From contig NZ_OZ075108.1 in assembly GCF_964186625.1 (NCBI RefSeq), forward strand, positions 2,418,001 to 2,482,000: a stretch of 64,000 bases of DNA. Reading direction: 5' to 3'. The first letter of the stretch is position 1. The number at the start of each line of letters is the position of its first letter. Below are positions 8,001-59,758 of the stretch, in pieces. A program made the translations under genes and the position numbers. Origin of the DNA: Asticcacaulis sp. MM231 (GTDB taxonomy: Bacteria; Pseudomonadota; Alphaproteobacteria; Caulobacterales; Caulobacteraceae). The notes below the pieces were generated by a model that worked only from the letters and a program-made list of their open reading frames with translations, was not told where the DNA came from and ran no database searches.

Positions 8001-8160
8001 GCGGCCGCAAAAGGGCGCTTTCCCCTACCGCAGGGGCAAAAAAATCCCTTAGAAAAAAGACAATTCATACGATTTTGAGGGTTTACCTGTAACAATTCGG
8101 CTATACCTTGCTGTAATATGGCAAGTCAGATTGCTGTGCCGTAACGGGAGCCCAAAACGT

Positions 8161-9966
8161 ATGCGCCTAGTCGCCAATATCAAGCGTGATTTCGTCTTCC
8201 TGAAGCGCCTGATACGTATCCTGCGCCGCATCAAGAGCGTCAATCCGGATTCACACAATCTGGTCTGCGACGATTTCGAAGCCGCGGCCACGAAGTTCCC
8301 CACCAATACCGCCATCACCTTTGAGGGCAAGTCGCTCACCTATCAGCAGCTTGATACCATGGCCAACCGCTACGCCCACTGGGGGCGTCAGCGTGGCCTC
8401 AAGCCCGGCGATACGGTGGCCCTGTTCTTGCCCAATCGGCTCGATTACCTGGCCATCTGGATCGGTCTCAACAAGATCGGCGTCGTCAGCGCGCTGATCA
8501 ACAATTCACTCACCGGCCCCGGTCTGGCGCATTGCATCAATATCTCCGTGGCCAGCCTGACCATTGTAGATCAGACGACCCGCACCTGTTTCCAGGAGAT
8601 CGAGAGCCAGGTTGAACGTCATCAGGCGCTATGGGTGCTTGATCTGGCGCGCGACGATGAAAGCGAAAACTGCCGCAGTCTTGATGCGGCGCTCAAGGGC
8701 GTGTCGAGCGTGCGTCCTGATCGTGAGTTCCGCAGCAGCCTGACCGCCCATTCGGTCGCGCTCTATATCTACACCTCAGGCACGACGGGCCTGCCAAAAG
8801 CGGCCAAGATTTCCAACGCCCGCGCCCAGCTCTATATGAAGGCCTTCGCCGGTCTGACCAGCATGAAGCCGGACGATAAGCTTTACTGCGTGCTCCCGCT
8901 TTATCATTCGACCGGCGGCCTTTGCGCCATCGGCGCGGCCCTGCTCAATGGCGCCGGTCTGGTTCTCAAGCGCAAGTTCTCGGCCAGCCAGTTCTGGAGT
9001 GATGTGCGTAGCCAGGGGATCACCCACATCGTCTATATCGGCGAACTGTGCCGTTACCTGACCAACTCTCCGCCGGCGCCAAATCCGGATGACGAAACCA
9101 AGCACAAGGTGCGTATGGTCTTCGGTAACGGCATGCGCCCGGAAGTCTGGGATCATTTCAAGGCGCGCTTCCGCATCAAGGACGTGCTCGAATTCTACGG
9201 CTCGACCGAAGGCAATGTGTCGCTGTTCAATCTCGACGGCCATTCTGGCGCCATCGCCCGCGTGCCCAAGTTCCTCAAGAAGAGCTTCAACGTGCGGCTG
9301 GTGCGCTTTGATGTCGAGAGCGAGATGCCGGATCGGCAGTCGAACGGTCTGTGCTACGAATGCAAGCCGGGTGAGATCGGCGAGGCCATCGGCCAGATCG
9401 CCGGCGATGCCCGCCATGCGTTCTCGGGCTATGCCGACAAGGCGGCGTCGCAGAAGAAGATACTGACCGACGTCTTCAAGAAGGGCGACCAGTGGTTCCG
9501 CACCGGCGACCTGATGAAGCAGGACAAGGCCGGCTATCTCTATTTCATCGACCGCATCGGCGACACCTTCCGCTGGAAGGGTGAAAACGTCTCGACCTCG
9601 GAAGTGGCCGAATACAGCGCCGCCGCGCCGGGTGTCGAGGAAGCCATCATCTATGGCGTCGTGGTGCCCAATCAGGACGGTAAGGCCGGCATGGCCTCGC
9701 TGATCACCCGCGAAGGCTTCGACCTGAAGACGTTCAAGGACTTCGTCGACAGCAAGCTCCCGACCTGGGCGCGTCCGAAGTTTATCCGGTTGCTGCACGA
9801 TGCCGAAACGACGGGTACATTCAAGTACAAGAAGATGGACCTGATCAAGGTGGGCTACGACATCACACTGACGACCGATCCGATCTACGTCTGTATCGGC
9901 GAGGATTTCGTGCCGCTGACGGCTGAGATTTTAGCCGATATCGCCGCCGACAAGATCCGGTTCTAA
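8161..9966 (+). CDS. Long-chain acyl-CoA synthetase (FATP/FadD6-like)
   Basis: A 601-residue adenylate-forming enzyme that would activate fatty acids (ATP + fatty acid + CoA to acyl-CoA). The phosphate-binding loop TSGTTGLPKA is at residues 205-214, the motif FYGSTEGN follows, and WFRTGDL and DRIGDTFRWKGENVST mark the C-terminal lid. The sequence matches the long-chain-acyl-CoA synthetase subgroup (FATP-like), which can couple uptake and activation at the inner membrane. The ATG at 8161 has GGGAG about 10 bases upstream; a TTG at 8131 is less likely. A terminator follows at 9993. It stands alone, with fadAB elsewhere in the window. Confidence 0.9.
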   Translation: MRLVANIKRDFVFLKRLIRILRRIKSVNPDSHNLVCDDFEAAATKFPTNTAITFEGKSLTYQQLDTMANRYAHWGRQRGLKPGDTVALFLPNRLDYLAIWIGLNKIGVVSALINNSLTGPGLAHCINISVASLTIVDQTTRTCFQEIESQVERHQALWVLDLARDDESENCRSLDAALKGVSSVRPDREFRSSLTAHSVALYIYTSGTTGLPKAAKISNARAQLYMKAFAGLTSMKPDDKLYCVLPLYHSTGGLCAIGAALLNGAGLVLKRKFSASQFWSDVRSQGITHIVYIGELCRYLTNSPPAPNPDDETKHKVRMVFGNGMRPEVWDHFKARFRIKDVLEFYGSTEGNVSLFNLDGHSGAIARVPKFLKKSFNVRLVRFDVESEMPDRQSNGLCYECKPGEIGEAIGQIAGDARHAFSGYADKAASQKKILTDVFKKGDQWFRTGDLMKQDKAGYLYFIDRIGDTFRWKGENVSTSEVAEYSAAAPGVEEAIIYGVVVPNQDGKAGMASLITREGFDLKTFKDFVDSKLPTWARPKFIRLLHDAETTGTFKYKKMDLIKVGYDITLTTDPIYVCIGEDFVPLTAEILADIAADKIRF

Positions 9967-9992
9967 GTCCCGCCTCGCCACCGACCAGACAC

Positions 9993-10030
9993 AAGAATAC
10001 CCGCAGAGCGATCTGCGGGTATTCTTGTTT
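9993..10030. terminator. Intrinsic terminator after acyl-CoA synthetase gene
   Basis: AAGAATACCCGCAG pairs perfectly with CTGCGGGTATTCTT around AGCGAT and is followed by GTTTT. The 20-base core CCCGCAGAGCGATCTGCGGG is also present in the fadAB terminator at 21750-21773 (read on the minus strand). Confidence 0.88.
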
Positions 10031-10084
10031 TACCAACGGCGGGGATAGTCCGCTGGGAGGCGGCGAAACGAAGTTCGGCTTAGC

Positions 10085-10166
10085 CAAAAGAGTTAGCTTG
10101 CGAGCACCGGAGCGGAGCGTACTTAAGTACGTGAGCACCGGAGCGAAGCAAGATGACGCTTTGCAG
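10085..10166 (-). repeat. Dispersed intergenic repeat, copy A
   Basis: Read on the minus strand it begins CTGCAAAGCGTCATCT, continues through CTCACGTACTTAAGTACG and ends near AGCTAACTCTTTT. The same blocks in the same order occur on the plus strand at 26669-26766. It also holds an internal direct repeat of GAGCACCGGAGCG. It lies between the acyl-CoA synthetase and TonB receptor genes, outside both. Confidence 0.75.
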
Positions 10167-10186
10167 CCCCTCCCGGTAGGACTTGC

Positions 10187-12802
10187 CTAGTACTTGACGC
10201 GGAGGGTAACACCATAGGTCTTCGGCGCACCCAAGAAGGCGTCATAGGTATTGGTATCGAGCGACTGGTTATAATAGGTGCCGTCCGCCTGAACCGTCGA
10301 CTGGAAGCCCGAGCCTTGCAGCGGCGCATTGATGACCACCTGCTTGTAGGACACATCCGTCAGGTTCTGGCCCCAAATTTCGACAGTCCAGGCCCGGTCG
10401 GCCGCACCCAACGCCAGACGGGCGTTGACGAGCGTATAGCTGTCCTGCGCCTTGAACGGCAGCAAATCGGAACCGGTATTGTAGTCCGAGGTGTACTTGG
10501 CTGTCAGATTGGCCGAGGTGCGGATCTTGCCGAAGGTATGGCCCCAGGTGATCGCCCCTGAGGAGGTCCACTTCGGTGCAAACGATACCTGAGCGCCTGG
10601 CAGCAGGGACAGGCCGGGGAAATGCGTCGGATTGTCGAGATCGGCCGCGGTGAAATCGCCATACTTGGTGTCGGCGTAGGAGATACCCCCCTGGAAGCTC
10701 AGGCCCGCGATCGGCGTGCGCCAGTAAACATCGGCGTCGAAGCCCTGCGATTTCAGATCGGGGATCGATTCGACCACAAAGGCCGTGCCGAGGAAGGTGT
10801 TGAGCTGGAAGTTCTGATACTGCTGGTCGAAGGCGGTGATATTGAGCGCCAGGGCGCCATCGAACAGGGCCGTTTTTAGACCCAGTTCATAGGAATCGAC
10901 CGTTTCAGGATCGAACCACAGATTGGTATCTGGCGTGATGCCGGTCTGGGCGCGATCGAGGTTAAAGCCGCCGGCCTTGTAGCCACGGGCATAGGAGCCA
11001 TAGAGCATGACATCATCGGTGACATGCCAGGCCGCCTTGAGCGTGCCGGACAGATCGCCGTCGGACTGGCTGTCGGCGACGTTGCGGTTGTTAAAGGCCG
11101 GGTTGGCCCAGAAGGGACAGAGCGCGCCGACTAAAGTGCTGGCCTTGCCGGTGGCGATGGCCCCGACCCAGTAAGGATTGGCACCGGCCAGAACCGCCGC
11201 CGTGGTGTTGCCGCCCTTGGCCGCCAGAAGGGCCGCCGCCTGACCGTATTTCTGCACGCCGGTGCCGCAACCGACGCCATTATCGCTGTTGGTATAGAGC
11301 GCGGTCATGCTCTTCTTTTCGTGGGTGTAGCGCAGGCCCATGGTCAGTTCGAGGGCGTTGTTCACCTTCCAAGAGTTGTTGGTGAAGAAAGCATAGCTTT
11401 CATCCGACTGGGTGTAGTGGTCGCGCGCCTGCTCACCCGCCTTGAAGTTGGTGCCGTAAGCACGACCGGTCAGCTTGGAGACGAAGGCCGGGTCCGTGCC
11501 GCTGGAAAGCAGCAGGCCGATATAGGGCTCATAGGACGAACCATAAACGTAGGAGTTAGCGCGGGTCAGGTCTTCCTTGACGTAGAAGCCGCCGACCAGC
11601 CAGTTCAGGTGCTCGGTGGAACCGGCCAGACGGACTTCCTGCGAGAAGGTCTTGAAGCGGGCGTTGAAGTCGCCGTTGTCCTTGCGGTAGAGAATGTCGG
11701 CGCCGGTATAGTCGAGATCCTGACCGTTGGTGGCCTTCCAGTCACGGATGCCGGTGACGGTGGTCAGGGTCGAATCCCACAGGCCATTGAGTTTGAAGTT
11801 GCCTTCGACCGAAACGCCGCCGTCGCGCACCACCTGATGGGTGTCGCGGTTGGAATAGGCCAAGCGCGCTGCCGGATCGGCCGTGGTGGCTAGGCCATGA
11901 TTCGCGCTCAGGGCCTGAATGATGGCGCCGGTCGGACCGGTGCGGGTCTGGGCGGCGACGCAGCAATATTCATCGCGGTGACTGAAATCACCAATGACGC
12001 GGATTTCAGCGTCGGCGCTCGGAGTAAACAGCAACTGGCCACGCGCCGTGGTGAAGTCCTGATCCTGATCGGATTTGAGCGTGCGCGGGCCAACGCCGGT
12101 ATCGACATCGGTGTAACCGTCATGCGAGCGCTTGGCGATATAGAGGCGACCTGCGACCAGATCCTGAACGATCGGGCCGGTCACAGAGGCGGAATAGCCC
12201 TGCGCGCCGTAATTGCCAAAGGTGGCCTCGCCTTCTGCGCCGAAGGTGAAGGACGGCTTCTTGGTGATGATGTTGATGACGCCGGCGGAGGTGTTCTTGC
12301 CGAATAGCGTGCCTTGCGGGCCTTTCAGGACTTCGATGCGTTCCATTTCGCCGAGATCGCCAAAGCCCACGCCGTTACGCGGACGGTAGACACCATCGAC
12401 CACCACCCCCACCGAGGATTCCAAGCCGGGGTTATCACCGACCGTGCCGACGCCGCGAATGCGGGCCGTGGTCAGGGTTTCGTTCTGGGTCGAGGTTACG
12501 GTCAGGCCAGGTGTCAGGATCTGCATATCCTTGATGTCGCGGACACCGGCGTCCTGCAGCAGCTTGGCCGACAGGGTGGTGACAACGATCGGCACATCCT
12601 GCAGGCGCTGCTCGCGCTTTTGCGCCGTCACGATAACGGTGGTTGAGTCTTCGGAGGCGACGGGAGCGGCGTCAGGTGTGGCGTCCTGAGCCAGGGCTGC
12701 AACCGGCGCGGTGGCAAGCAGGGCGACGCTTGTCAACAGGGCGGCCTTGGCGACACCCATCATGAGAGGGCGGCCTTTAAGTAAATGAATGGCGCTTTGC
12801 AT
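10187..12802 (-). CDS. TonB-dependent outer-membrane receptor
   Basis: An 871-residue outer-membrane receptor. The signal peptide ends near residue 39 (VAALAQ). A TonB box-like TTVIVTAQ is at 54-61, followed by the plug domain (DVPIVVTTLSAK, RIRGVGTVGDNPG, GVVVDGVYRPRNG, LKGPQGTLFGKNTSAGVINI). The rest is a 22-strand barrel ending in aromatic residues (GVTLRVKY). Family members import siderophores, sugars or other large solutes with TonB energy. Caulobacterales carry many such receptors and the substrate cannot be read from the sequence; no Fur box or catabolic partner is adjacent. A palindrome, TTCCCTTAGGTAA, overlaps its ribosome site. Confidence 0.93.
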   Translation of the reverse strand: MQSAIHLLKGRPLMMGVAKAALLTSVALLATAPVAALAQDATPDAAPVASEDSTTVIVTAQKREQRLQDVPIVVTTLSAKLLQDAGVRDIKDMQILTPGLTVTSTQNETLTTARIRGVGTVGDNPGLESSVGVVVDGVYRPRNGVGFGDLGEMERIEVLKGPQGTLFGKNTSAGVINIITKKPSFTFGAEGEATFGNYGAQGYSASVTGPIVQDLVAGRLYIAKRSHDGYTDVDTGVGPRTLKSDQDQDFTTARGQLLFTPSADAEIRVIGDFSHRDEYCCVAAQTRTGPTGAIIQALSANHGLATTADPAARLAYSNRDTHQVVRDGGVSVEGNFKLNGLWDSTLTTVTGIRDWKATNGQDLDYTGADILYRKDNGDFNARFKTFSQEVRLAGSTEHLNWLVGGFYVKEDLTRANSYVYGSSYEPYIGLLLSSGTDPAFVSKLTGRAYGTNFKAGEQARDHYTQSDESYAFFTNNSWKVNNALELTMGLRYTHEKKSMTALYTNSDNGVGCGTGVQKYGQAAALLAAKGGNTTAAVLAGANPYWVGAIATGKASTLVGALCPFWANPAFNNRNVADSQSDGDLSGTLKAAWHVTDDVMLYGSYARGYKAGGFNLDRAQTGITPDTNLWFDPETVDSYELGLKTALFDGALALNITAFDQQYQNFQLNTFLGTAFVVESIPDLKSQGFDADVYWRTPIAGLSFQGGISYADTKYGDFTAADLDNPTHFPGLSLLPGAQVSFAPKWTSSGAITWGHTFGKIRTSANLTAKYTSDYNTGSDLLPFKAQDSYTLVNARLALGAADRAWTVEIWGQNLTDVSYKQVVINAPLQGSGFQSTVQADGTYYNQSLDTNTYDAFLGAPKTYGVTLRVKY

Positions 12803-46618: not shown

Positions 46619-49600
46619 CTACAGTCCTAATCCCCGATCACGGTCGCGGTCGCGCTGGATCGATCGTTCCAGCTCACGACTGATGCTGTCCTGACCGCCC
46701 GCCTTGCCCAATCCCAGTTCCTGACGCCGATTGCGCAGCAACGACTCCACCTGAGGATCGCGGGCTATCTCTTTGGCCGTGTCGCGCATGGCCCTCTCCA
46801 CGGGCGCACGGGCCTCGTCGTGCTGCCAGCCCTCAAGTCGCTTTTGCTGGGCGGTGAGTGACCTCCACCGATCCACCAAACGGTCGGCTCGCACGTGCGG
46901 ATCAGCCAAAGCCAGGCGCTCCTGCGACATGCCGGTGATCAGGGTCTGCGTTTGCGCCTCACCCGACAAATCCATCATGGCCTGACGCATGGCCGGGTTA
47001 TGCCTCAGGGCCGACGCCATAACGCTCGATGCACCGGGCCGGGCCTGGTCCAGTGACCGCGCAGCCTCATTCAGAGCCTGCTTCTGTCCTTCAAGGATCG
47101 GCAGGCCGTCCCGCTGCATTCTGGCGGCATCGCTATAGGCGCGGGCATATCGCTCCGTCGCCTTCTCCAGCGGAGACGTGCCGCGTCTGCCGGGTCGATC
47201 GGCAACGGTATCGCTACTGCGGTCGTTGTCACGCTCCGGGGCATTGGCCTTCAGCTTCAGGCCCGCAAACATGCTGCGCTTCTTCGTCGGCTGGGCCGGC
47301 TCATTCGATCTATCGGGCTCCACCTCCCTGTCGCGCACCTGGACCGATGGCTGGCGCTCCAGCGGATAGACAATATCGCTATCCATGCCGCGCCGTCTGG
47401 CGAAGGCCTCGGTGTCCCTCACCTGTTGCCCGGTGTCACGACGGCGGCCATCGCGATCGACATAGTCCAAAACCGTCTCCTTGGCGCCTGAGCGGCCAAG
47501 TCGGGACTTCAAGGCGTCCATGTCAGCAAACTGGTCCTCACCGGCATAGAGCTGAGCCATGTCCTTATGCCGAGTCATGGCGACGTAGGTCATGTGCCGG
47601 TCCATGGTCTCCGAGGCCAGCACATAGGATCGGTCTACGGTTGCCCCTTGCGTCTTATGGATGGTGGTGGCGTAGCCATGATCGAATGTCTTGTATTCCG
47701 TGGCATCGATGGCCACCGCCCGGTCACTGCCATCCAGCCGTGTCACAAGGCGGCCATGCTCCACGGCCTCGACCGTGCCAAGGGTGCCATTCTTCACATC
47801 CATGTCGCGGTTGTTTTGCAGAAAGACGATGCGGTCACCAACTGTGAAACTGCGCTCGCCGTTCTCGGTTTTGTAGGCAAGCTCATGGCCTTGCAGATGG
47901 CCCCTGCCCTTCAGTGCTTCGCGGATGTCTTCATTGATGGCGTGCACATCAACGCGGCGATGCGCCATAGCCGCTCTTGTGCCATCCGGCCGGGCCTCTA
48001 CGTCATCGACATAGTCGCGCACCAGACCGGCACGGGCCGCCTCCTGATCGACCTTTAGATGGACGTGGCCGCGTTTCTCATAGGCCGATAGCCCCTCCTC
48101 TGTCCGCTCGGTGGCGAAGGCGCGCGAGGCCGCTTTCTGCCAGTGTGTGCGCTGCCGGCGGATATCCTCAACAGAGGCATAGCCTACCTCTTCGGCAATT
48201 GCCCTGAAGGGCGCCCCGGCGCCGATCGCCTGAAGCTGCTCATGATCGCCAACCAGCACGAGCTTGGCGCCCGTCCGCTCGGCCTCTGACACAAACCTGG
48301 CGAGTTGGCGCGATCCCACCATGCCGGCCTCATCAATGACCATGACATCGCGCGGACCGAGCTGGGCGGTGCCCATCTTCCACCGCATCTCCCAAGACGC
48401 CAGTGTGCGGCCCTCGATGCCGGCGCTTTCCTCCAACCCGGCGACGGCCTTGCCCGCCAGTGCGGCGCCGTGGACAGTGTAGCCTTCCGCTTCCCATGCC
48501 TCCTTCGCGGCGGCCAACATGGTGCTCTTGCCGGCGCCGGCAAAGCCAACAACTACGGACACCTGTTCGTCGCCCGTTATATGCCTGACGGCATCACGCT
48601 GCTCTTCGCTCATACCAGCCGCTTGCATCAGGCGCGCGCGCTGAGCGGCGGCCAGATCATCCGGCAAGCTGGCAGCGATGCCGCGCCGTATCGCTTCATC
48701 TTGGCCGTTAATGGCACGATCGATATGGCTGTCCCTGACGCCATGCTTTGAGCGTCCTGACATGGCCGCCACATCGCGTGCCATGCCGGTTTCCAACTCG
48801 ACCATTTCCCGCGTCGAATAGCGCACGCCGTCAGGTCCGTCAGCAATACGCACCAGCTCGTCCGACGCCATGACTTTCGAGTACAGCGCCTGGTATTCTG
48901 CTGGGTCGTCATTGATATAGCGGTGCAGGGTGCGGGCAACGTCGCGACGATCGAACACGCTCTTCTCACCGGTGATCAGTGTCAGCACCTGGTCGGGGTT
49001 TTCTCGGATCAGTTCGGCGTTTCTAACCCTCGCCTCCTCGGCCAGCCGTTCGCGCTCGACCTCCTTGCCCTGCCGGTCCATCTGCGTGGCATGAACACCG
49101 ACGTGCTGGGTCGGTTCGATCTCCAGGCCCCGGTCCTGGTGCGAGCGGTGATCGATGCGGATGTCATGACCGGCGCGCGCCAGATGAAGATTAGCCGTTT
49201 CTTCCCACTCGACACGCAGCGCTTTCAACTGCTCGTCGGTCGTCGGCAGCTCCCGCGCCTTGAGCCATTTGTTTTCGCGTTCAAGGTCCGTCTTATCGCC
49301 AAGCCCCTCGTCCGTCACCTGACGGGTCGTGAACAGGATGTGCGCATGATGGTTGCGTATATCCATATCCTGATCAGGCGTATGCAGAGCGAAGTCCACC
49401 GCCACGCCATAGCGATCGGCTAGCGACTGAGAGAACTCCCGCACCAGTTCCAGTCTCTGTTCCCCCGTCAGCTCATGCGGTAAGGCGACTTCGATTTCGC
49501 GGGCGACGCGGGCATCCTTGCGCTTCTCGGCAAACTCGGCCGCATTCCACAGCGTCTCCCGGTCACGCGCCCATTCGGCCGTGCTGCCCTCTGACAGAAG

Positions 49601-49759
49601 AATCTCCGAATGCTCGATGCCGCCCTTCCGGGTGTAGTCGTGCGTCACACCATCGCGTTCATTGGTCAGACGGGTGCCGGAGCGATAGGCGGCCGCGCCC
49701 ACAGCCGAGCGGCCCGATGCACGGGAGACGGTTTTCATGCTCAGATGATAAATCGCCAT
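46619..49759 (-). CDS. traA: Ti-type conjugative relaxase/helicase TraA
   Basis: A 1046-residue relaxase that nicks oriT and unwinds the transferred strand. The N-terminal MobA/MobL domain has the catalytic tyrosine in GAAAYRSG (Y25) and the metal-binding histidines in RNHHAHILFTTRQ (H137, H138, H140). The helicase part has Walker A VVGFAGAGKST, Walker B VMVIDEAGMVGSRQ, GDHEQLQAIGAG and the late motif YATTIHKTQGATVDR with TYVAMTRHK, as in RecD-type enzymes. The C-terminus is charged. GAGGGGATA precedes the ATG at 49759; longer reading beyond it is non-coding. The gene points away from oriT, as in Ti plasmids. Confidence 0.95.
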   Translation of the reverse strand: MAIYHLSMKTVSRASGRSAVGAAAYRSGTRLTNERDGVTHDYTRKGGIEHSEILLSEGSTAEWARDRETLWNAAEFAEKRKDARVAREIEVALPHELTGEQRLELVREFSQSLADRYGVAVDFALHTPDQDMDIRNHHAHILFTTRQVTDEGLGDKTDLERENKWLKARELPTTDEQLKALRVEWEETANLHLARAGHDIRIDHRSHQDRGLEIEPTQHVGVHATQMDRQGKEVERERLAEEARVRNAELIRENPDQVLTLITGEKSVFDRRDVARTLHRYINDDPAEYQALYSKVMASDELVRIADGPDGVRYSTREMVELETGMARDVAAMSGRSKHGVRDSHIDRAINGQDEAIRRGIAASLPDDLAAAQRARLMQAAGMSEEQRDAVRHITGDEQVSVVVGFAGAGKSTMLAAAKEAWEAEGYTVHGAALAGKAVAGLEESAGIEGRTLASWEMRWKMGTAQLGPRDVMVIDEAGMVGSRQLARFVSEAERTGAKLVLVGDHEQLQAIGAGAPFRAIAEEVGYASVEDIRRQRTHWQKAASRAFATERTEEGLSAYEKRGHVHLKVDQEAARAGLVRDYVDDVEARPDGTRAAMAHRRVDVHAINEDIREALKGRGHLQGHELAYKTENGERSFTVGDRIVFLQNNRDMDVKNGTLGTVEAVEHGRLVTRLDGSDRAVAIDATEYKTFDHGYATTIHKTQGATVDRSYVLASETMDRHMTYVAMTRHKDMAQLYAGEDQFADMDALKSRLGRSGAKETVLDYVDRDGRRRDTGQQVRDTEAFARRRGMDSDIVYPLERQPSVQVRDREVEPDRSNEPAQPTKKRSMFAGLKLKANAPERDNDRSSDTVADRPGRRGTSPLEKATERYARAYSDAARMQRDGLPILEGQKQALNEAARSLDQARPGASSVMASALRHNPAMRQAMMDLSGEAQTQTLITGMSQERLALADPHVRADRLVDRWRSLTAQQKRLEGWQHDEARAPVERAMRDTAKEIARDPQVESLLRNRRQELGLGKAGGQDSISRELERSIQRDRDRDRGLGL

Positions 49760-49797
49760 TGACCTATCCCCTCGCCGGCCCCTGCCGGCGCGCATCT

Positions 49798-49828
49798 GAG
49801 TTGCGAAGCAACTCGTAAGTGCGCCCTT
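49798..49828 (+). other. oriT: Origin of transfer (oriT) with nic site, RSF1010/pTi type
   Basis: A hairpin, GAGTTGC-GAA-GCAACTC (49798-49814), is followed directly by GTAAGTGCGCCCTT (49815-49828). The second block matches the conserved nic region of the RSF1010/pTi group (TAARTGCGCCCT), where nicking falls between G and C of GCG-CCCT. The position between divergent traA and the traD/traG genes is that of the Ti plasmid oriT. This identification rests on both sequence and context. Confidence 0.88.
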
Positions 49829-49985
49829 CAAAATCTCCGCTACGCTACGATTGCTCAGGTGTGCTGCACGTTTGTCAGGCGCGATACACACAACACATAC
49901 GGTCTCAGAGTACCATAAAAACACTTGCAATCAAGAGTTGAGTTTGGCAAAATAAAGCATCGTGGAGTTGTTACGGGGTGGTATA

Positions 49986-50719: not shown

Positions 50720-52396
50720 ATGATCAATTGGTTCTTCCGCGTTTTTCGCGCCCTCGGCAACATGCTGGCCGCCGCCGCGCGTGACCCATTATGGGCATTC
50801 ATGTGTGTTGTGATGGCGCCGTTTCGGATGTGGAAACATGTCCTCGGCACGTTCGTTATTGTCCTTCTTTCGGCGATCGTCCTCGACCTGTTATTCCTCT
50901 GGATGGAGTCTTTTTTCGTCCCTCACGGAACCCGAAACAAGGTGCTCGATACTGTGCTGGGCATCGTCCTACTCGTCATCGTGGCGGCGGTCTTTCTGCG
51001 AGTGATTGCCGCACCATTGCTTCTCCATTTCGACTACGGTGACGGCGCGAACACGCATGGTTCGGCGCGGTTCGCCACCCGGAAAGACATGGACAGCATC
51101 ACGAGTTTACGGGATGGCCTGTTGATCGGTCGCGAAGGTCCGGGCGGCAAACTGATGCGTTATGATGGGCCGGCGCATTTGCTGACCATGGCTCCTACGC
51201 GCTCCGGCAAGGGTGTGGGTACGATCATTCCAAACCTCCTGCTGCAAGACCGCTCGATCGTCTGTATCGATCCCAAAGGTGAGAATGCTCGCATCACGGC
51301 ACGGGCAAGGTCGGCGTTTGGGCCGGTCCATATCCTCGATCCCTTCAGCGTCACAGGTCGACCTTCTGCCGCCTATAATCCCCTCGCCGCCCTCGATCCT
51401 GACAGTCCCGACATTGCCGAGGACGCCGCCCTTCTGGCTGACGCCCTGGTCGTCGATCCGCCTGGCGCCGTCGGTGAAGCCCACTGGAACGAAGAGGCCA
51501 AGGCGCTGATCACCGGCATAATCCTCTACATCGTTTCCGAGGAAATCGAGCTTCGCCGCAACCTGGCTGTACTCCGTGACTGTCTGACATTGGATACGCA
51601 CGAGTTTGCCGATCTGCTGACAACGATGCAGTCAACCTCTGCCTGTCATGGTCTGATCCGCAGAGCTGCCAATCGCCACAAATCAAAGTCGGATCGTGAG
51701 GCTGCCGGCGTGCTGTCGGCCGCGCAACGCCATACGCACTTTCTCGACAGCCCACGGATGGCGGACGTGCTGCGCCGGTCGGATTTTAGCTTCGGCGACC
51801 TGAAGCGCCAGCCAACGACCGTCTTCCTTGTGTTGCCGCCCGATCGGCTTGACACCTATGCGCGCTGGCTCCGCCTACTGGTGACACAAAGCCTGACGGA
51901 CATGGTACGGGCGCCGGGGCGTCTTCCCTCCCCTGTTCTCTATCTGCTGGATGAGTTTGCCAGCCTCGGCCACCTGGCTGCCGTGGAGCGCGCCATGAGC
52001 CTGCTAGCCGGTTACGGCGTGCAGCTCTGGCCGATCCTTCAGGACATACATCAACTGAAGGCCACCTATGGTCAACGGGCCGGCACCTTCCTGTCCAATG
52101 CCGGCGTCCTCCAGGTTTTCGGCGTCAATGATCATGAAAGCGCGCGCCTGATTTCTGATCTGTTGGGCCAGAGCACGGTCGTATTCCAGACCATGAGCCG
52201 CAACCTCGATTCCGAGGACTCCGGCATCACCTATGGCGAACAACATACCGGCCGGCCGCTGTTGACGCCCGATGAGGTGCGGCGCCTACCGCCGGAATCG
52301 GAACTGTTATTCCTGGCCGGGCAAGCGCCGCACATCGCATACAAGCTGCGTTATTATGACGATCCCGAATTCAGAGGCAGGTTCGACCAAAGCTGA
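50720..52396 (+). CDS. traG: Type IV coupling protein TraG/VirD4
   Basis: A 558-residue inner-membrane ATPase that brings the relaxosome to a type IV secretion channel. Two membrane segments occupy about 42-62 and 78-100. Walker A is APTRSGKGVG at 158-167, followed by NLLLQDRSIVCIDPKGEN; Walker B is VLYLLDEFASLGHL and RAGTFLSNAGVLQVFGVND follows, as in VirD4/TraG. The length is at the short end of the family, but the protein ends normally. No mating-pair (VirB or Trb) genes are in the window. The 3' end overlaps the convergent repeat-protein gene by 43 bases. Confidence 0.93.
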   Translation: MINWFFRVFRALGNMLAAAARDPLWAFMCVVMAPFRMWKHVLGTFVIVLLSAIVLDLLFLWMESFFVPHGTRNKVLDTVLGIVLLVIVAAVFLRVIAAPLLLHFDYGDGANTHGSARFATRKDMDSITSLRDGLLIGREGPGGKLMRYDGPAHLLTMAPTRSGKGVGTIIPNLLLQDRSIVCIDPKGENARITARARSAFGPVHILDPFSVTGRPSAAYNPLAALDPDSPDIAEDAALLADALVVDPPGAVGEAHWNEEAKALITGIILYIVSEEIELRRNLAVLRDCLTLDTHEFADLLTTMQSTSACHGLIRRAANRHKSKSDREAAGVLSAAQRHTHFLDSPRMADVLRRSDFSFGDLKRQPTTVFLVLPPDRLDTYARWLRLLVTQSLTDMVRAPGRLPSPVLYLLDEFASLGHLAAVERAMSLLAGYGVQLWPILQDIHQLKATYGQRAGTFLSNAGVLQVFGVNDHESARLISDLLGQSTVVFQTMSRNLDSEDSGITYGEQHTGRPLLTPDEVRRLPPESELLFLAGQAPHIAYKLRYYDDPEFRGRFDQS

Positions 52397-53238
52397 CCCC
52401 CGATAAACTTCGGCGGCGGCGTGTAGCACCTTTGCCAGTCGGGATCACCGTTCGGCTCAAACTTGTCAAAAAAGCGATTTCGTAGCTTAGATTCAAAATC
52501 TATAGCATGGCCAAGGAACGCCCGAACCCAGGTAAGGGCATCGCCGTAATCCCAGCTCCCTCCCTGGCTGGAGGGTTCCATATCCTTCCTTTTTCTGAAG
52601 TTCGCTTCCGCCTCCAGATCACAGGCAGCTATAACCGTCCGTCCGCACAAGATACGCGCTTTCATGTCGAGAGCGGTCTTGGTAGATAACCGCATTATCC
52701 CGCGCTCATGATAAAATACGGGTTCCCAAATATAGTTGTTGAGCGTTTTGATATCGGTCTGGAATTGCTTGGCCAGAAGATAATCTATCGCCCTGGCGAT
52801 GGAATACTCGGCACTGTAGCGGTGAGCCCCTCCTTCCTTGAGACGCCGATAAATGCGCGCCTTGCATATCTCCCAGACGACCAGCCATTTGTCATCGACG
52901 GGCGTGCCAAAGGCAAAGTCGTAAGACTGGTCGAGCAAGTCCATCAGACCTTCAGGCGTCAGGGATTCCGATAGTAGCGTGCCTCTGGCCTCTGCGTGTT
53001 TGCAGCGTTCGAGAACACCTACGCTGCTATCTCGCCTGTAGTTGGGACTGACCGGGGCGCCTTCCATCCGTTTGACAAGATGGGGCCGCGCCAACTCACC
53101 GACAAATTTGCGTTCCAGTTGAGTATTCTGATCCTTTCGTTTGACATAGTAATTCAGCATGTCCTCATCAGACATGGTCATAAAGTCTCTGCGCGCGGCC
53201 TCTTTTCTGGCCTTCTCGATGTTGGGTGCATTTCTCAT
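52354..53238 (-). CDS. Repeat protein, last gene of the XRE-sigma operon
   Basis: A 294-residue protein of no family known to me. Two segments fit a pattern also found four times in the protein encoded at 53972-55030: LL-x-L/Y-x3-A... then W-x2-V-x3-C-R-x2-I-x-R-R. In this protein they are MLNYYVKRKDQN to LVKRMEG and LMDLLDQSYDFAFG to WEICKARIYRRLKEG. There is no signal peptide or membrane segment. The ATG at 53238 overlaps the sigma factor stop (ATGA), so the genes are translationally coupled. Its 3' end overlaps the end of traG on the other strand. Confidence 0.65.
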   Translation of the reverse strand: MRNAPNIEKARKEAARRDFMTMSDEDMLNYYVKRKDQNTQLERKFVGELARPHLVKRMEGAPVSPNYRRDSSVGVLERCKHAEARGTLLSESLTPEGLMDLLDQSYDFAFGTPVDDKWLVVWEICKARIYRRLKEGGAHRYSAEYSIARAIDYLLAKQFQTDIKTLNNYIWEPVFYHERGIMRLSTKTALDMKARILCGRTVIAACDLEAEANFRKRKDMEPSSQGGSWDYGDALTWVRAFLGHAIDFESKLRNRFFDKFEPNGDPDWQRCYTPPPKFIGGQLWSNLPLNSGSS

Positions 53239-53975
53239 TTGAACCACACCCCAATCTCGGGCAGGTAATGCGCAACGACGAAAATTCCGGCGGCGCCACA
53301 GATACCTATGTTCAATCCCATCAGGAGCGACACGGCTTCACTTCGGGGGATGTACCACCAAGACCGGCGCCGCCCTGAAGCGGTCTTGATGACCTCTTGC
53401 CCTCCGAAAAACGCATCCGTCCTCCGACAAACCCGCGCCGGGTCACAAAATGCCGCCTGAAGCAGATAATGAAATTCCAGCAGGGCTTTGGCGGCGCGTC
53501 TACTGACGGCGTTAGGCTCGATCCTGAATTTGCGCGCCAGTTCACGCAAAGATCGCCCTTCCACGCGCCAGGCCCACAGGATGTCCCTATTGGAGCGCTG
53601 CATCCGTTGCATAGCGTTTAGCGCCATATCTGCGCCCACTGGAGGGCGCTCGTGAGCCGGGAGCGGACCGACATCCTGGCTCGCAATGTACTGCGACGCC
53701 GGTAGCAACGCGGTGTCCGTTCTGGCCACCGCTATGTCGAAAATCAGGCGCATCATATAGGCATGAGGATTGATAATCCTGCCCCAGTTTCCGCCTTCGA
53801 TGACCTTCCGCATCGCCGACTGGTAGATCTGGCGGGCATCCTCGACGCTGCCACTCAGACGCCGGGCCAGGGCGAAATAGTCCTGATCCCTAGTCAGGTG
53901 GAGACAGAACCAGTCTGCCTGCCGCGCTGGCTGGGCGTAGGGAGGTTCCGGTAAAAGCGATGACTTGCTGATCAT
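53235..53975 (-). CDS. Sigma-70-like factor with C-terminal membrane segment
   Basis: A 246-residue protein resembling an ECF sigma factor. A region-2-like part lies at about 29-82 (LTRDQDYFALARRLSGSVEDARQIYQSAM, then NPHAYMMRLIFDIAVA). Region 4 is at about 130-170 (DILWAWRVEGRSLRELARKF then RIEPNAVSRRAAKALLEFHYLL), a helix-turn-helix. After a basic linker (ASGRRRSWWYIPR) comes one membrane segment (about 221-240), unusual for a sigma factor. ATGA overlaps join it to the repeat-protein genes on both sides. Whether it directs transcription of this operon, the transfer genes or other targets is unknown. Confidence 0.75.
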   Translation of the reverse strand: MISKSSLLPEPPYAQPARQADWFCLHLTRDQDYFALARRLSGSVEDARQIYQSAMRKVIEGGNWGRIINPHAYMMRLIFDIAVARTDTALLPASQYIASQDVGPLPAHERPPVGADMALNAMQRMQRSNRDILWAWRVEGRSLRELARKFRIEPNAVSRRAAKALLEFHYLLQAAFCDPARVCRRTDAFFGGQEVIKTASGRRRSWWYIPRSEAVSLLMGLNIGICGAAGIFVVAHYLPEIGVWFK

Positions 53976-55030
53976 GGCCGACCTCCCGCAAGACTGGCTT
54001 CCGCTCCGCCAGCGTCTGCCTGATCATGCGCTGTTACCCGCCGCACCAGTTCCGTGCGCTTCCAATCCAACCAGTATCTGTCGTCTGGTCGCAGAGGTGG
54101 TGGCTTCATGCGGCGTAAAATCTGCGCCCGGCACATATCTGCAATAGCCATCCAAGGCGAGTCCGGCTCGCAATCCCAGGCCATGCGGTAGATCGTCAGC
54201 AGGTTCTTATTGGAAAGCTTACCCGTAAGGACTGCCGCAAGCGCTTGGGCGTGGTGGTCCGGATAGTCGAACCCTTCAACTGGCGAAATGAGCGCCAGGT
54301 CCGGGCTGCCCTGCTCTATCCGCTTTTGCAGCATCTCGGTTATGGGATCGAGGATGTCATCAAAGATCTCGTCGTCAGGGCCGGCACCACAATTGTCTAC
54401 AAGGATGTAAAGGTCGAGCAGTTTTGCGTCCGACAATTCATATTCGAAGGCGTCCTCGGCGACGCGCAAAACCTCGCGCAGAGACACATAGTCATCAGCA
54501 TCGGCGTCGGCATCCTCGGTTTCGTCATCCTCGTCACTGGCTTCCGGTGCCGCTTCCAAGGGCACTGATGGCTTAGCTGCTGCCACCCGACGCAGGACTT
54601 CTTCGCGGCATTGGGCTGCAACCCGGTCCCACCGCGCCTGCATCGGTTCGGCCTCGCGTAAATAGGCGTTTTCCGAAGCCTGGATAAACAGGGTCAGGAG
54701 TCCGGCATTATCCATTTTGGCTATGGAGTTGAGGGCGTGGCGGAACAACTTTGGTTGCCAGTCCGCGTCAGGGTCCCGCCAGCCCAGATGATCCGCTTCG
54801 TGATTGCCGCTCAGCAATTGCATGAGTTCGGCACCAGCCTCATCGCGGAGTTGGTCCCAATGACCGGGCCGTGGGGCGGCGTGGCCTTCTTTCTCGGCCT
54901 CGTGCTGGTCCGCCAGCAGCAACAGATCCAGTAGTCGCTCCGGCGGAGGGGATGACGCCAGTTCGTGGCCGGCAACGTCAAACTGGCCGGTAATGTAACC
55001 GGCTGGTAGGGGATGTGAAATGGCGTTCAT
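53972..55030 (-). CDS. Four-repeat protein of the XRE-sigma operon
   Basis: A 352-residue soluble, acidic protein I do not recognise. Four segments (about 31-73, 108-150, 202-243 and 275-310) share a pattern: LLDLLLLADQHEAE, LLTLFIQASENAYL, LLDLYILVDNCGAG and LLTIYRMAWDCEPD begin them, and three end in a W or I, then a C-R-x2-(I/V)-L-R-R type helix (CREEVLRRVAA, CRAQILRRMKP). An acidic linker (EASDEDDETEDADADADD) separates repeats 2 and 3. The same pattern occurs in the protein encoded at 52354-53238. Both ends overlap neighbouring genes by ATGA. A scaffold or anti-sigma role is possible but not shown. Confidence 0.65.
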   Translation of the reverse strand: MNAISHPLPAGYITGQFDVAGHELASSPPPERLLDLLLLADQHEAEKEGHAAPRPGHWDQLRDEAGAELMQLLSGNHEADHLGWRDPDADWQPKLFRHALNSIAKMDNAGLLTLFIQASENAYLREAEPMQARWDRVAAQCREEVLRRVAAAKPSVPLEAAPEASDEDDETEDADADADDYVSLREVLRVAEDAFEYELSDAKLLDLYILVDNCGAGPDDEIFDDILDPITEMLQKRIEQGSPDLALISPVEGFDYPDHHAQALAAVLTGKLSNKNLLTIYRMAWDCEPDSPWMAIADMCRAQILRRMKPPPLRPDDRYWLDWKRTELVRRVTAHDQADAGGAEASLAGGRP

Positions 55031-55332
55031 GGCCGCACCACCCCACCCTTCCGGACCATGCCGGAAATCGGGTCTATAAAGAACGGTACGCGTACCCTGA
55101 GCGCGATTGGAAGCACCGCCAGCATGTCCGCGCGGAACGGAATTTCGCCGCGCTCGTATTTACGGATGTCGTCCTTGGTCAGCGCCAACTGAGCGGCAAG
55201 CCCGCTCTTGGTGAGGCCCAAATGCTTACGGCGTTGCTTCATCAGCTCGCCAAGGCGAATGTCTACGGTACTACGGCCGTTTATTTCTACACAAGCGCCG
55301 GCAGTCGGGCGCACTACATTACGTATACGCAT
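55027..55332 (-). CDS. XRE-family (Cro/CI-type) regulator
   Basis: A 101-residue protein with one helix-turn-helix: ELMKQRRKHLGLTKSGLAAQLALTKDDIRKYERGEIPF at about 29-66. The last 30 residues (LPIALRVRVPFFIDP) form the usual end of small Cro/CI-type regulators. AAGGGG six bases before the ATG at 55332 supports that start. It is first in a four-gene operon and overlaps the next gene by ATGA; autoregulation of the operon is likely. Confidence 0.85.
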   Translation of the reverse strand: MRIRNVVRPTAGACVEINGRSTVDIRLGELMKQRRKHLGLTKSGLAAQLALTKDDIRKYERGEIPFRADMLAVLPIALRVRVPFFIDPISGMVRKGGVVRP

Positions 55333-55794
55333 GTCTAACCCCTTTCCAGTAGAAGAGGCCCAGCACTATGGCTTGGGCGACTTCGAGCCTTTGGTGATCG
55401 GGAAGTTAGAAAACCGCAACGAGACGGTCCCTATGGCCTTCGGACGGAGCCTATTGCATACGCCATAGGCTTCCCGACCGCAAAGAGGTCAAGGATATTC
55501 GTGCTGGGAATGGCCAGCATCAAACCACTCGTTGTCAGGCTTTCTACGACCTGGCAGTCACATGTGGCAACTGCAACTTCAGGGTGACATAGAACCGGAG
55601 AAAAATCAAACCCGGTCAAATTTTCTCCGAGCACCTCGATCGAACTATGCCCTCAAAACATATCCCGGTTGTCATTGAACAGCGCATTCGCGCCCTTCTA
55701 GGAAATGAAACTTAGTGGTTGTTGTAGCTTCTTGGAAATGGGAGGTTCCACTAACGTGCTACAGATACCCCACAATCATTCACACGGTGATGAG
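55333..55794. other. Promoter side of the XRE operon, with a 9-base inverted repeat
   Basis: No gene with family likeness is seen in these 462 bases. CGGAGAAAA (55596-55604) and TTTTCTCCG (55621-55629) form a perfect inverted repeat with a 16-base spacer, a candidate operator or end of an element. Short frames on both strands are not supported. Confidence 0.4.
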
Positions 55795-56841: not shown

Positions 56842-57075
56842 ATGCTTTTCGCAAACAATTCAATTCAGAAGCTTCAGTTTGCCATCAATGATGTTACGTC
56901 GGAATTCCGCATTTCACATGAACTCTCTGCATTTTCACCACCCAAAGTTGCTGAGTTAACTTTCAAACATTGTCAAGGCGCCCCAAATCGGCATACGTTT
57001 CGTATTCTGCGTTGGGTTGAGCCATTCAAAATGGCAAGCCTTACAAGTCATAACGGCTGGGGAATAAATTTGTGA
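56842..57075 (+). CDS. Small hypothetical protein overlapping the methyltransferase start
   Basis: A 77-residue frame with no known family. Its TGA stop overlaps the GTG start of the methyltransferase gene (GTGA), the kind of junction seen in coupled genes. There is no clear ribosome site before its ATG, so it may not be translated. No membrane segment or helix-turn-helix is obvious. Confidence 0.35.
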   Translation: MLFANNSIQKLQFAINDVTSEFRISHELSAFSPPKVAELTFKHCQGAPNRHTFRILRWVEPFKMASLTSHNGWGINL

Positions 57076-58022
57076 TTCACAACAATGATGGTTTTGTCGC
57101 CAATGAGGTGACTCACGAGTTTATAGAAGGAGACGCATTTGCGAAATTAGACTTGATTGCGGACCAGTCTTGTCGGCTAGTGATAACTTCCCCACCTTAC
57201 AATATCGGCAAAGAATATGAGCGCGATAGGCGCCGAACTCTGGATGAATACATTCAATGGCTCACGCCCATTGTAGAAAAAGCATGCGACAAGGTTACAG
57301 ATGACGGCCATTTGTGCTGGCAGGTTGGTAACTATGTCAGTAACGGTGAAGTGTTTCCGCTCGATTATTTCTTTTACGAAATTATCACGAGAAAAGGATT
57401 TAAGCTTCGGAATCGAATAATTTGGCATTTTAACTTTGGTCTGCACGCAAAAAAGCGATTTTCTGGCCGCTATGAGACGTTACTATGGTTCTCAAAGTCG
57501 GATAGCTACTTCTTCCAGCTGGAGGAGGTACTAGTCCCACAGCTATATCCGGGCAAGCGACACGCACCGTCAAAGGGCGCCAAAGCGGGAATGCCTAGCG
57601 GCAACCCCAAGGGGAAAAATCCGACTGACTACTGGACCTTTGATCCAGATGAGGTAATGAAGTCAAATCCTATTTGGGACTTGCCGAATGTGAAGGCAAA
57701 TCATCCAGAAAAAACCGTTCACCCCTGCCAGTTCCCAAGCGAACTGGTAGAGCGCTGTGTTCTGGCACTCACTGAAATCGGCGATACGATACTCGATCCC
57801 TTTGTCGGAACAGGGACTAGCGTAATCGCCGCAGCAATTCACGGCAGGCGCGGCATTGGTATCGACCAAAGCCTGCCATACATAAAGCTAGCTGAGCAGC
57901 GGCTTGCCGCGTTTCAAGAAGGCCGATTGGTGACCAGGCCTATTGGAAAAGAAGTTCGAAGACCGAAGGTCGGCGAGCGCGTAGCAACCATTCCAGACGA
58001 ATGGGCCCCGGCAGCTGAATAA
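57072..58022 (+). CDS. DNA methyltransferase, beta class (N6-adenine or N4-cytosine)
   Basis: A 316-residue amino-methyltransferase using S-adenosylmethionine. The catalytic motif IV TSPPYN is at residues 39-44 and the cofactor motif I DPFVGTG at 242-248; this order defines the beta class. HPCQFP before motif I is motif X. TSPPYN is compatible with either N4-cytosine or N6-adenine methylation, so the base is undecided. The only in-frame start is the GTG at 57072. The DGQHR-domain gene follows after 19 bases, so the pair probably forms one modification-type system. Codon use is AT-richer than in the core genes. Confidence 0.88.
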   Translation: MIHNNDGFVANEVTHEFIEGDAFAKLDLIADQSCRLVITSPPYNIGKEYERDRRRTLDEYIQWLTPIVEKACDKVTDDGHLCWQVGNYVSNGEVFPLDYFFYEIITRKGFKLRNRIIWHFNFGLHAKKRFSGRYETLLWFSKSDSYFFQLEEVLVPQLYPGKRHAPSKGAKAGMPSGNPKGKNPTDYWTFDPDEVMKSNPIWDLPNVKANHPEKTVHPCQFPSELVERCVLALTEIGDTILDPFVGTGTSVIAAAIHGRRGIGIDQSLPYIKLAEQRLAAFQEGRLVTRPIGKEVRRPKVGERVATIPDEWAPAAE

Positions 58023-58041
58023 GGGCGCGAGGATAAATAAT

Positions 58042-59758
58042 ATGGCTGTTAGTCCCAAAAAGAAAAGCAAGGTCCTTAGCCCGGAAGATAAGGCGCGCGC
58101 GGCTTTACAGCGCCGTCATCGGAATGAGATTCGAGATATTTTCACTTCCGTCGGATTTAGTCGAGCTGACGGTGCCTCCGATAAAGAATTCACCTTCATG
58201 GGATTTACAAGTGATTTCGATGATATTTTCATTCTTGAAAATACGATCGTCTTGGTCGAATACACTGTAAGGAAAGAAAGCGATATATCTGAGCACATAA
58301 AACCGAAAGCACTTTTATACGAAAAAATACTAAATAATAAATCCGCTTTTTTAGATTTTGCTCGCTTAAGCCCGCTGAATATTAAAAGTGCGCTTGCAGA
58401 TAAATATCAAAACACCAATATAGAGCTGGTAATTGCGTATTGCTCATACAATACCGTAAAGGTCGAAACGAAAATACAAGTTCCTCAGGTTAAATATTTT
58501 GACTATAGTGTTGTCAGGTACTTTAAAATACTTACAAAGACAGTTCGACGGTCTGCGCGAAGTGAGGTTTTGGCGTTTCTAGGCATCGATTACAACCGGT
58601 TCGCCGAGCGAGCTTTGCAAAACAATCCATCACCTCGGGATGCTTTCAGAGGCTCAGTTTTGCCGGAAGCACATTCAAACTTTCCTAGCGGATACAAGGT
58701 CGTATCTTTTTATATTCACCCTGCTGCATTATTGTCGCGGGCGTACGTCTTACGGCGCGATGGTTGGCGTGATCGAGACGGACTTTACCAACGGATGATC
58801 GTCAGGAGTAAAATAGACTCGGTCAGAAAGTATCTGATCGAAACTCGCAGGGTATTTGTAAACAATATAATCGTAACACTACCCAGTGGGACCAAAGTTT
58901 TAGACGATCAAGACAATACAATCGACCCTAAGACAATTCAGCAGACTCGACCCGCAAGTATTGCAATTCCGTCTGATTTTAATTCTATCGGACTTATTGA
59001 CGGTCAACATCGTGTTTTCTCGTATTACGAAGGCGGCTCTAATGAAGCGGTAGTCAGCGCACTTAGAGCACAGCAAAACCTTTTGGTAACAGGGATTATC
59101 TATCCCGAATCGGCGTCGGCTGACGAGAAAACTAAATTTGAAGCGGGCCTATTCCTTGAAATCAATTCTAACCAGTCAAATGCTAAGTCAGAATTGAAAC
59201 AAGCGATCAACCAAATCATCCGTCCCTTTCTGGCAGATTCAATTGCACGAGACGTTCTGGACGCTCTTAACGACGGCACCGGTGCACTTTCAGACAAGTT
59301 TGCTCGCCAATACTTCGAGACTGAACCGTTGAAGACGACTTCAGTTGTAAGCTATGGGTTGCGTCCTCTAGTTCGCCCAACGAGCTCGAGTTCCGCTTTT
59401 CAGGTTATGGACCGACCCTGAAAAAGATACATTTGTTGCATCTGAAAACGACGCCGCCCGAAAGAGGTATATTGCGTTCTGCGCCAGTCAAATTGGAATA
59501 TTTTTTTCCGCTGCAAAGTCACGACTTCCGGCTCAAAAGTGGACCATAGATAAAAAAATTCCTGACAGGCTGGTAACCCCCACCGTCATCAACGGTTTGA
59601 TTGGCGCTCTCCGTCAAGCGTTAGAAGCTGGAACTCTTTTTGAATTCGAAACCCTTCGGAGCAAGTTTGACGGCTTGGAGAATTTTCCATTCTCCAACTA
59701 TAAATCGAGTCAGTACACGGTTATGGCTTCCGAGATCTCAAAACAATTTTTGTCTTGA
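58042..59758 (+). pseudogene. DGQHR-domain (DndB-like) protein, one-base frameshift
   Basis: The main frame runs 58042-59421 and has the DGQHR signature at residues 320-324 (GLIDGQHRVFSYYEGG), followed by FLEINSNQSNAKSELKQAI, both hallmarks of DndB-like and related DNA-modification proteins. An extra T in the run GCTTTTCAGG near 59398 breaks it. Removing it restores SSSAFRLWTDPEKDTFVASE and about 110 more residues to a TGA at 59756-59758. The N-terminal 100 residues (DDIFILENTIVLVEYTVRKES) recall a PD-(D/E)xK nuclease core, with the last motif degenerate; this is an inference. The break may be an assembly error. Confidence 0.7.

Follow-up and report, generated by a model that had tools for sequence, protein, structure and literature searches.

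An operon headed by a structured leader RNA

The 64,000-nucleotide stretch of Asticcacaulis sp. MM231 analyzed here (the window) is part of a 3.46-Mb contig (C1) in a 4.65-Mb genome (G000; other genomes and loci are likewise cited by G and L numbers). On its minus strand, at 52354..55332, four open reading frames (ORFs) lie in a row and are joined by three ATGA overlaps, directly preceded by a structured leader RNA of ~240 nt (55333..55574, minus strand). The first gene (55027..55332) encodes a 101-aa XRE-family helix-turn-helix (HTH) protein matching Pfam HTH_31 above cut-off. It is followed by genes for a 352-aa repeat protein (repeat protein 1; 53972..55030), a 246-aa sigma-like protein of the FecI type of extracytoplasmic function (ECF) sigma factors (53235..53975), and a 294-aa second repeat protein (repeat protein 2; 52354..53238), whose start ATG at 53238 gives the overlap, while the listed ORF begins with a GTG at 53247. 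A first-pass annotation had proposed this four-gene operon with its overlaps and with an XRE regulator as first gene, all of which was reproduced here; the span that it gave left out the most conserved part of the locus, the leader RNA 5′ of the XRE gene.

The leader RNA is conserved in structure

The leader was delimited from an alignment of eight leaders, pair counts, and model matches, and its coordinates give the approximate extent of conservation rather than a mapped transcript 5′ end. From 5′ to 3′ it consists of a first hairpin, a second hairpin, a pseudoknot strand, a third hairpin, a core of helices P1, P2, and P3, and the Shine-Dalgarno region of the XRE gene. The core was found by two covariance models at 55393..55543 (minus strand; R1, 180.1 bits; R2, 150.6 bits), of which R1 was built from the eight leaders, window included, and both leave the pseudoknot out. 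The 5′ strand of P1 (55470..55479) pairs with 55396-55405, while the 5′ strand of the pseudoknot helix (55528..55534) pairs with the P3 loop at 55417-55423. All nine operons of the family described below carry the leader at their 5′ side, eight of them as members of R1 and the ninth, in G389, as a match found by R1. Mean column identity in the core of the eight leaders is 88% at the DNA level, a value only roughly comparable with the 66% identity, in protein letters, of the XRE proteins at seven of the eight loci.

A nested RNAalifold consensus was replaced because its pairs clash with P1, and the structure that was counted, with seven helices including the pseudoknot, was therefore drawn by us from the same eight-leader alignment on which the pairs were then counted. 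In this alignment, which was not fitted to structure, 98.7% of cells are paired and 13 pairs are changed on both sides, compared with 7.0 in shuffles and 0–4 when the structure is slid; six of the seven pseudoknot pairs show changes on both sides. The pseudoknot was further evaluated on 63 distinct sequences, obtained from 66 rows after two duplicate pairs were merged and the L184 row, which has no 5′ part, was set aside. The P3 loop forms a run of at least six Watson-Crick pairs with its own 5′ segment in 47 of the 63, and of at least five in 53, whereas loops taken from other sequences reach six in 3% and five in 13%, and shuffled loops in 4% and 18%. The RNA 5′ of a lone sigma gene (L008) fails this test with a run of three. 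Across the same set, 97.5% of nested pairs are formed and 24 of 28 are changed on both sides, in an alignment that was fitted to the model and is thus biased towards it. With compensatory changes in excess of both shuffled and slid controls, it is nearly certain that the leader is a conserved RNA structure. An alternative reading as a leader peptide was rejected, since the lengths of the reading frames differ among copies (by eye).

Comparison with Rfam 15 returned no match above cut-off for the RNA of the window, for that of six operon loci, or for that of 20 wider loci. The nearest similarity is to sRNA-Xcc1 (RF02221), which aligns at 55388..55479 (minus strand) with 33.2 bits, below the cut-off of 53; the RNA core gives 31.2–40.5 bits in seven loci, namely the window and three of 20 in each of two sets of loci, and the leader is thus short of the at least 53 bits that define this family. 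The accessible part of PMC2996969 describes sRNA-Xcc1 as a free 88-nt RNA of Xanthomonas, unlike the leader at the head of an operon studied here. According to the accessible parts of PMC12444791 and PMC12189769, it is present seven times in one Xylella genome, with five copies grouped on a genomic island, and sits upstream of symE in integron cassettes, so that both RNAs are carried on mobile elements. Both share a P1 enclosing P2 and P3, aligned across all 87 model positions, but the 87-position model has neither the 5′ hairpins nor the pseudoknot strand. As judged by Rfam 15 and searches of one open-access library, the wider group of RNAs is a candidate undescribed class, which may be described elsewhere; Asticcacaulis was not mentioned among the open-access matches listed.

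The RNA occurs in many genomes and on conjugative plasmids

In 149 sampled genomes of the family Caulobacteraceae, R1 found 40 places in 25 genomes and seven of 22 genera, the weakest of which (E > 1e-3) may be chance. R1 also found the RNA 5′ of the G389 operon and of the lone sigma homolog of L008. Within the genus, the gene 3′ of the RNA often encodes an HTH protein, either alone (L131 and L136 by Pfam, L129 and L130 by eye) or as part of a fusion with a FecI-type sigma factor. Such fusions occur in seven loci (L003, L132–L135, L140, and L150), with sigma region 4 above cut-off in all seven and the HTH above cut-off in four and recognized by eye in the rest. A FecR-type gene follows in L133 (DUF4880 above and FecR below cut-off) and L140 (both above), and by eye in L134 and L135, while none was seen behind L132 and L003. 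No paper combining all the terms sought for an XRE-FecI fusion was found in one open-access library. One fusion lies in the window's own genome (L003, 947-2031; G000:C1 ~1336921-1338005), where the RNA stands 5′ of an XRE-like/FecI sigma gene and the listed ORFs behind it include no FecR-type gene.

A second model, built from 30 sequences (R2), placed the RNA in 42 of 318 sampled genomes of the class (E 1e-4), which represent 35 of 242 genera. A single genome can hold as many as nine copies, and G478, G491, and G764 hold seven to nine, one of these genomes being only 1.6 Mb in size. By blastn, the RNA was present in one phage record and in 55 plasmid records (30 of them listed), 43 of which are typed as conjugative. 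Among seven plasmid regions inspected, for which the gene table declares itself incomplete, no feature overlaps the RNA, and six have a gene of ~100 codons directly downstream. One of these six genes is RovC/DUF2285-like, one has a TraM match below cut-off, and four have no Pfam match at 0.1.

Further contexts were observed. On conjugative plasmids of Afipia and Bradyrhizobium (L153 and L154), an acyl-homoserine-lactone synthase gene lies ~2 kb downstream of the RNA, and in L154 the first gene behind the RNA has a TraM-like match (below cut-off). At L139, in a different genus of Caulobacteraceae, the RNA follows immediately after a phage-type integrase gene.

A candidate translational switch

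The 3′ strand of P1 (CUAACUCC onward) has a second possible partner, the Shine-Dalgarno region of the gene that follows. In the window, the strand at 55402..55409 (minus strand) can pair with 55335-55342 (GGGGUUAG, in the XRE Shine-Dalgarno region) instead of within P1. All eight XRE leaders retain eight alternative pairs, with changes on one side only. Seventeen loci were given to a wider test, from which L136 was dropped because its motif was not found and in which the L132 stretch includes its ATG. A run of at least seven pairs is present in 14 of the remaining 16, and in 12 of the 16 at most three of 200 shuffles perform as well. The registers vary by group, with CUAACUCC facing GGGGUUAG, ACGAACUCC facing GGGGUUUGU, and ACUCCCCGA facing UCGGGGAGU. 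The start codon lies 64–70 nt 3′ of the RNA in the eight XRE leaders and close behind it in other genera (by eye), while in some distant ones a terminator-like hairpin comes next (by eye).

On these pairings, the balance tips slightly towards a leader that gates translation of the first gene. When P1 and the pseudoknot are formed, the Shine-Dalgarno sequence would be free; when they are not, the 3′ strand of P1 would pair with it. This arrangement resembles translational riboswitches as a kind, in that a structured leader has two mutually exclusive pairings, one of which masks the Shine-Dalgarno sequence; unlike them, the RNA is known here from sequence alone and has no Rfam match above cut-off.

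The sigma-like and repeat proteins

A sigma-70-like factor with a membrane segment had been proposed for the third gene. A profile of the three element-borne copies (window, G389, and L008) supports the former, with ECF sigma factors as its first matches in the PDB (SigE, SigJ, and SigW; best E 4.2e-4, positions 24-170, spanning regions 2 to 4), although the window protein by itself matches Pfam region 4 only below cut-off. The C-terminal membrane segment is present in the window protein and absent from both homologs, and is thus not conserved. The three copies form a clade of their own (support 0.977; FastTree, 14 sequences), share a C-x-P-x(3)-C-x(2)-T-D tail, and lack the RR(S/A)(K/R)VV segment of four FecI relatives, which we take to be the basic promoter-contacting segment of region 2.4; the N-terminus of the window protein aligns with the DRWF-like start of the FecI relatives. 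In terms of ECF membership, regions 2 and 4 are therefore found together while the basic segment is missing, and by sequence the protein is a diverged FecI-type ECF protein that has lost its basic region 2 segment. A Pfam match to Bcl-2 (E 6e-4, below cut-off) was discounted, as that part of the protein aligns to ECF region 2. Sigma relatives of G196, G332, and two of three in G389 were excluded as element copies on account of their FecR-like and receptor-like neighbors (by eye).

Among the neighbors read, none of the sigma genes in the window, G389, or L008 has a FecR or receptor gene beside it, which places these loci outside the FecI-FecR-TonB receptor systems. The element operons resemble such systems in the kind of their sigma-like protein and in that XRE-FecI fusions, some of them followed by a FecR-type gene, also have this RNA in front, but they carry repeat proteins and a separate XRE protein, have no FecR-type gene, and have lost the basic segment. 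At L008 (6053-7849), in the window's genome, the RNA, the lone sigma homolog, and a nucleotidyltransferase-like gene stand in a row beside a second relaxase gene.

The two repeat proteins had been described as sharing an unrecognized repeat, a view that profile searches bear out. With a profile built on repeat protein 2, the window's repeat protein 1 is recovered at E 1.4e-4 and further repeat proteins at E values as low as 3.2e-10, and neither of the two matches Pfam, NCBIfam, PADLOC, or PHROGs. These profiles were relied on because initial scoring of internal repeats used some overlapping slices and did not raise the third unit of repeat protein 1 above shuffles. Two models, of low to middling confidence (pLDDT 61.7 and 70.7), show the repeat proteins as helical, with about four three-helix units in repeat protein 1 (low-confidence model). 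Repeat protein 2 has repeats and a C-terminal part in common with G389 and G858. Profiles searched against PDB sequences gave nothing convincing (best E 0.6 and 0.67), and models compared with PDB structures gave nothing better than E 0.41, so the repeats are given no fold name; they are a helical family without a Pfam or PDB match.

A second operon copy in the window's genome (L016, G000:C1:2822000-2841000; 7966-10664), in which fusion genes replace the sigma and repeat protein 2 genes, encodes a 335-aa protein that joins repeats, an XRE-like stretch resembling the operon's XRE protein (phmmer E 5e-5), and region 4 of sigma-70 above the Pfam cut-off. This fusion is the best sign that the three parts may work together, and the XRE protein probably makes up a single regulatory unit together with the sigma and repeat proteins, close to what the first-pass annotation had guessed. 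Putative binding of the repeat proteins to the sigma-like protein is plausible. PADLOC returned only generic HTH matches for the XRE protein (best E 6.7e-6) and none for the other three. As had been claimed, the operon proteins match no known system, and the operon is new in its parts.

An operon family associated with transfer genes

The XRE subfamily has eight full-length places in six of 25 genomes of the genus (two each in G439 and G000, one each in G454, G474, G260, and G858; E 2.5e-40 or better, next match 1.8e-16). Together with G389, where a repeat gene has no XRE gene found in front, these make nine operons, confined to Asticcacaulis among the genomes sampled. Gene content varies around the XRE-rep1-sigma-rep2 order of the window: G389 has rep-sigma-rep2, the second G000 copy and G474 have XRE-rep1-(repeat+HTH+sigma region 4)-(sigma region 4), the two G439 operons XRE-rep, G454 XRE followed by a short rep, G260 XRE-rep-rep-rep, and G858 XRE-rep2. 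A sigma gene is thus present in two of nine and the fusions instead in another two. On these make-ups, XRE and repeats form the core, while the sigma part is optional. Relatives of repeat protein 1 (E 1e-3) were found in seven of the 149 family genomes, six of Asticcacaulis, its own included, plus a weak match full of stops in G191; among 385 sampled genomes of the class, its own genome alone matched, with the single protein as with a 12-row profile. No relatives were found in plasmids with the sigma protein and repeat protein 1 as queries, in viral contigs with the XRE protein and both repeat profiles, or in genome contigs with the sigma protein alone, and the XRE protein gave 16 distant HTH matches in plasmids, none covering 80% of the query.

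Transfer genes (traG, relaxase, or type IV secretion system genes) lie beside seven of the nine operons. In the window, as had been noted, the operon adjoins a traG gene for a VirD4-type coupling protein (50720..52396, plus strand; matching T4SS-DNA_transf), with which it converges so that the 3′ ends overlap by 43 bases. The same element carries a MobA/MobL relaxase gene (46619..49930, minus strand), traC/traD-like genes (by eye), and an integrase-like gene at ~64065-65531, just outside the window, recognized by likeness to a gene of L022. In all, traG lies beside four operons, at the second G000 copy as a 3′ fragment only; a DUF3363 relaxase gene adjoins the operons of L040 (G439) and G260, and a VirB4-type and a ParB-like gene adjoin that of G858. 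The proposed check of co-occurrence with traG gave a mixed answer: a single further element (G389) has the succession repeat-sigma-repeat-traG, there lacking XRE, but in three others the site 3′ of traG is taken by an unrelated gene. In the genus, six traG loci are close matches (E < 1e-200), of which three have the operon and three (L120, L121, and L122) have at that place a gene unrelated to it, nucleotidyltransferase-like by likeness to the L008 gene, and in these three R1 has no match.

A proposed RNA-gated regulatory module and its alternatives

Sequence comparison leads us to propose that the operon is an XRE/sigma regulatory module carried by mobile elements and gated by an RNA, a reading that we regard as evenly balanced between right and wrong. 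The leader RNA would head the operon and gate translation of its first gene, and the rest would follow by coupling. The XRE protein would act as a DNA-binding regulator, and the repeat proteins may be partners that take the place held by the anti-sigma factor FecR in FecI systems and link the sigma-like protein, or region-4 remnants of it, to the XRE protein. The likely output would be control of element genes, be it transfer, excision, or the operon itself. XRE-controlled transfer regulators exist in alphaproteobacterial elements, for example QseC/QseM of ICEMlSymR7A. As with these, a small XRE-type protein adjoins transfer genes here, and on one plasmid the RNA stands 5′ of a gene with the annotation DUF2285 (RovC_DNA-bd by Pfam), but the four operon proteins match such families only through a generic HTH, and we know of no counterpart to the sigma-like and repeat proteins among them. 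The suggestion of a signaling or transfer-control system gains from the ties to transfer genes and from the repeat/XRE/sigma fusion, and loses from the operons without a sigma part.

Several observations weigh against the proposed module. L134 and L131, two of the 16 loci tested, have at most six alternative pairs, and the eight XRE leaders, near-identical in their Shine-Dalgarno strand, show no compensatory change there. Since a G-rich Shine-Dalgarno sequence will pair with CUCC in any event, the alternative pairing is support rather than proof. In other genera the RNA precedes quite different genes and is therefore not dependent on XRE. Five of the nine operons have no sigma part, and no transfer gene lies within the stretch read at L039 and L041. 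Having lost the basic segment, the three element sigmas may not act as sigma factors. The absence of RR(S/A)(K/R)VV from all three copies and the retention of region 4 alone in the operons of L016 and L038 would fit a captured ECF fold that serves as an adaptor or RNA-polymerase decoy and no longer drives transcription; since regions 2 and 4 are both still recognizable, we consider this possible but on the doubtful side.

The RNA itself could instead be a free small RNA acting in trans, as proposed for sRNA-Xcc1, and lie beside the operon only through co-travel. The below-cut-off likeness to sRNA-Xcc1, reported as an 88-nt RNA in the accessible part of PMC2996969, points this way, as do the terminator-like hairpins seen by eye 3′ of the RNA in certain distant genomes and the up to nine copies in one genome, but the close start codon, in the operons and in other genera alike, and the retained Shine-Dalgarno pairing make it unlikely. 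Less likely again is that the operon is defense or toxin-antitoxin cargo in a variable slot beside transfer genes, with the XRE protein as autorepressor, as the repeat and sigma proteins have no PADLOC match, the combination of sigma-like and HTH parts in one operon points to regulation, and the operons sit on the transfer side of the cargo.

Beyond the operon, the leader may belong to a widespread, unrecognized class of pseudoknotted cis-regulatory RNAs, largely on alphaproteobacterial mobile elements, that would switch small regulatory or accessory genes by masking the Shine-Dalgarno sequence, with sRNA-Xcc1 of Xanthomonas and Xylella, to date interpreted as a free small RNA, as a remote relative; we hold this to be slightly short of an even prospect. 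Its presence in about one-eighth of the sampled alphaproteobacterial genomes, and on plasmids mostly typed as conjugative, together with the lack of an Rfam match above cut-off, makes this RNA with its covariation-supported pseudoknot a strong candidate new class of regulatory RNA, and offers a new angle on the function of sRNA-Xcc1. With a DNA-binding protein, a captured sigma-like protein, new partner proteins, and adjoining transfer genes, the operon provides a concrete target on which the RNA can be tested.

Neighboring genes

The L016 operon adjoins, besides the 3′ fragment of traG, part of an integrase-like gene. A gene at L042 (9945-13295), divergent to the G260 operon, encodes a 1116-aa protein with no Pfam match above cut-off and no PADLOC match. 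In H17, a gene named HEPN occupies a site like that 3′ of traG. In the cargo of the window (57072-59421), an adenine-type DNA methylase gene adjoins a DGQHR/DndB-like gene, a pair that is possibly a modification-based defense module.

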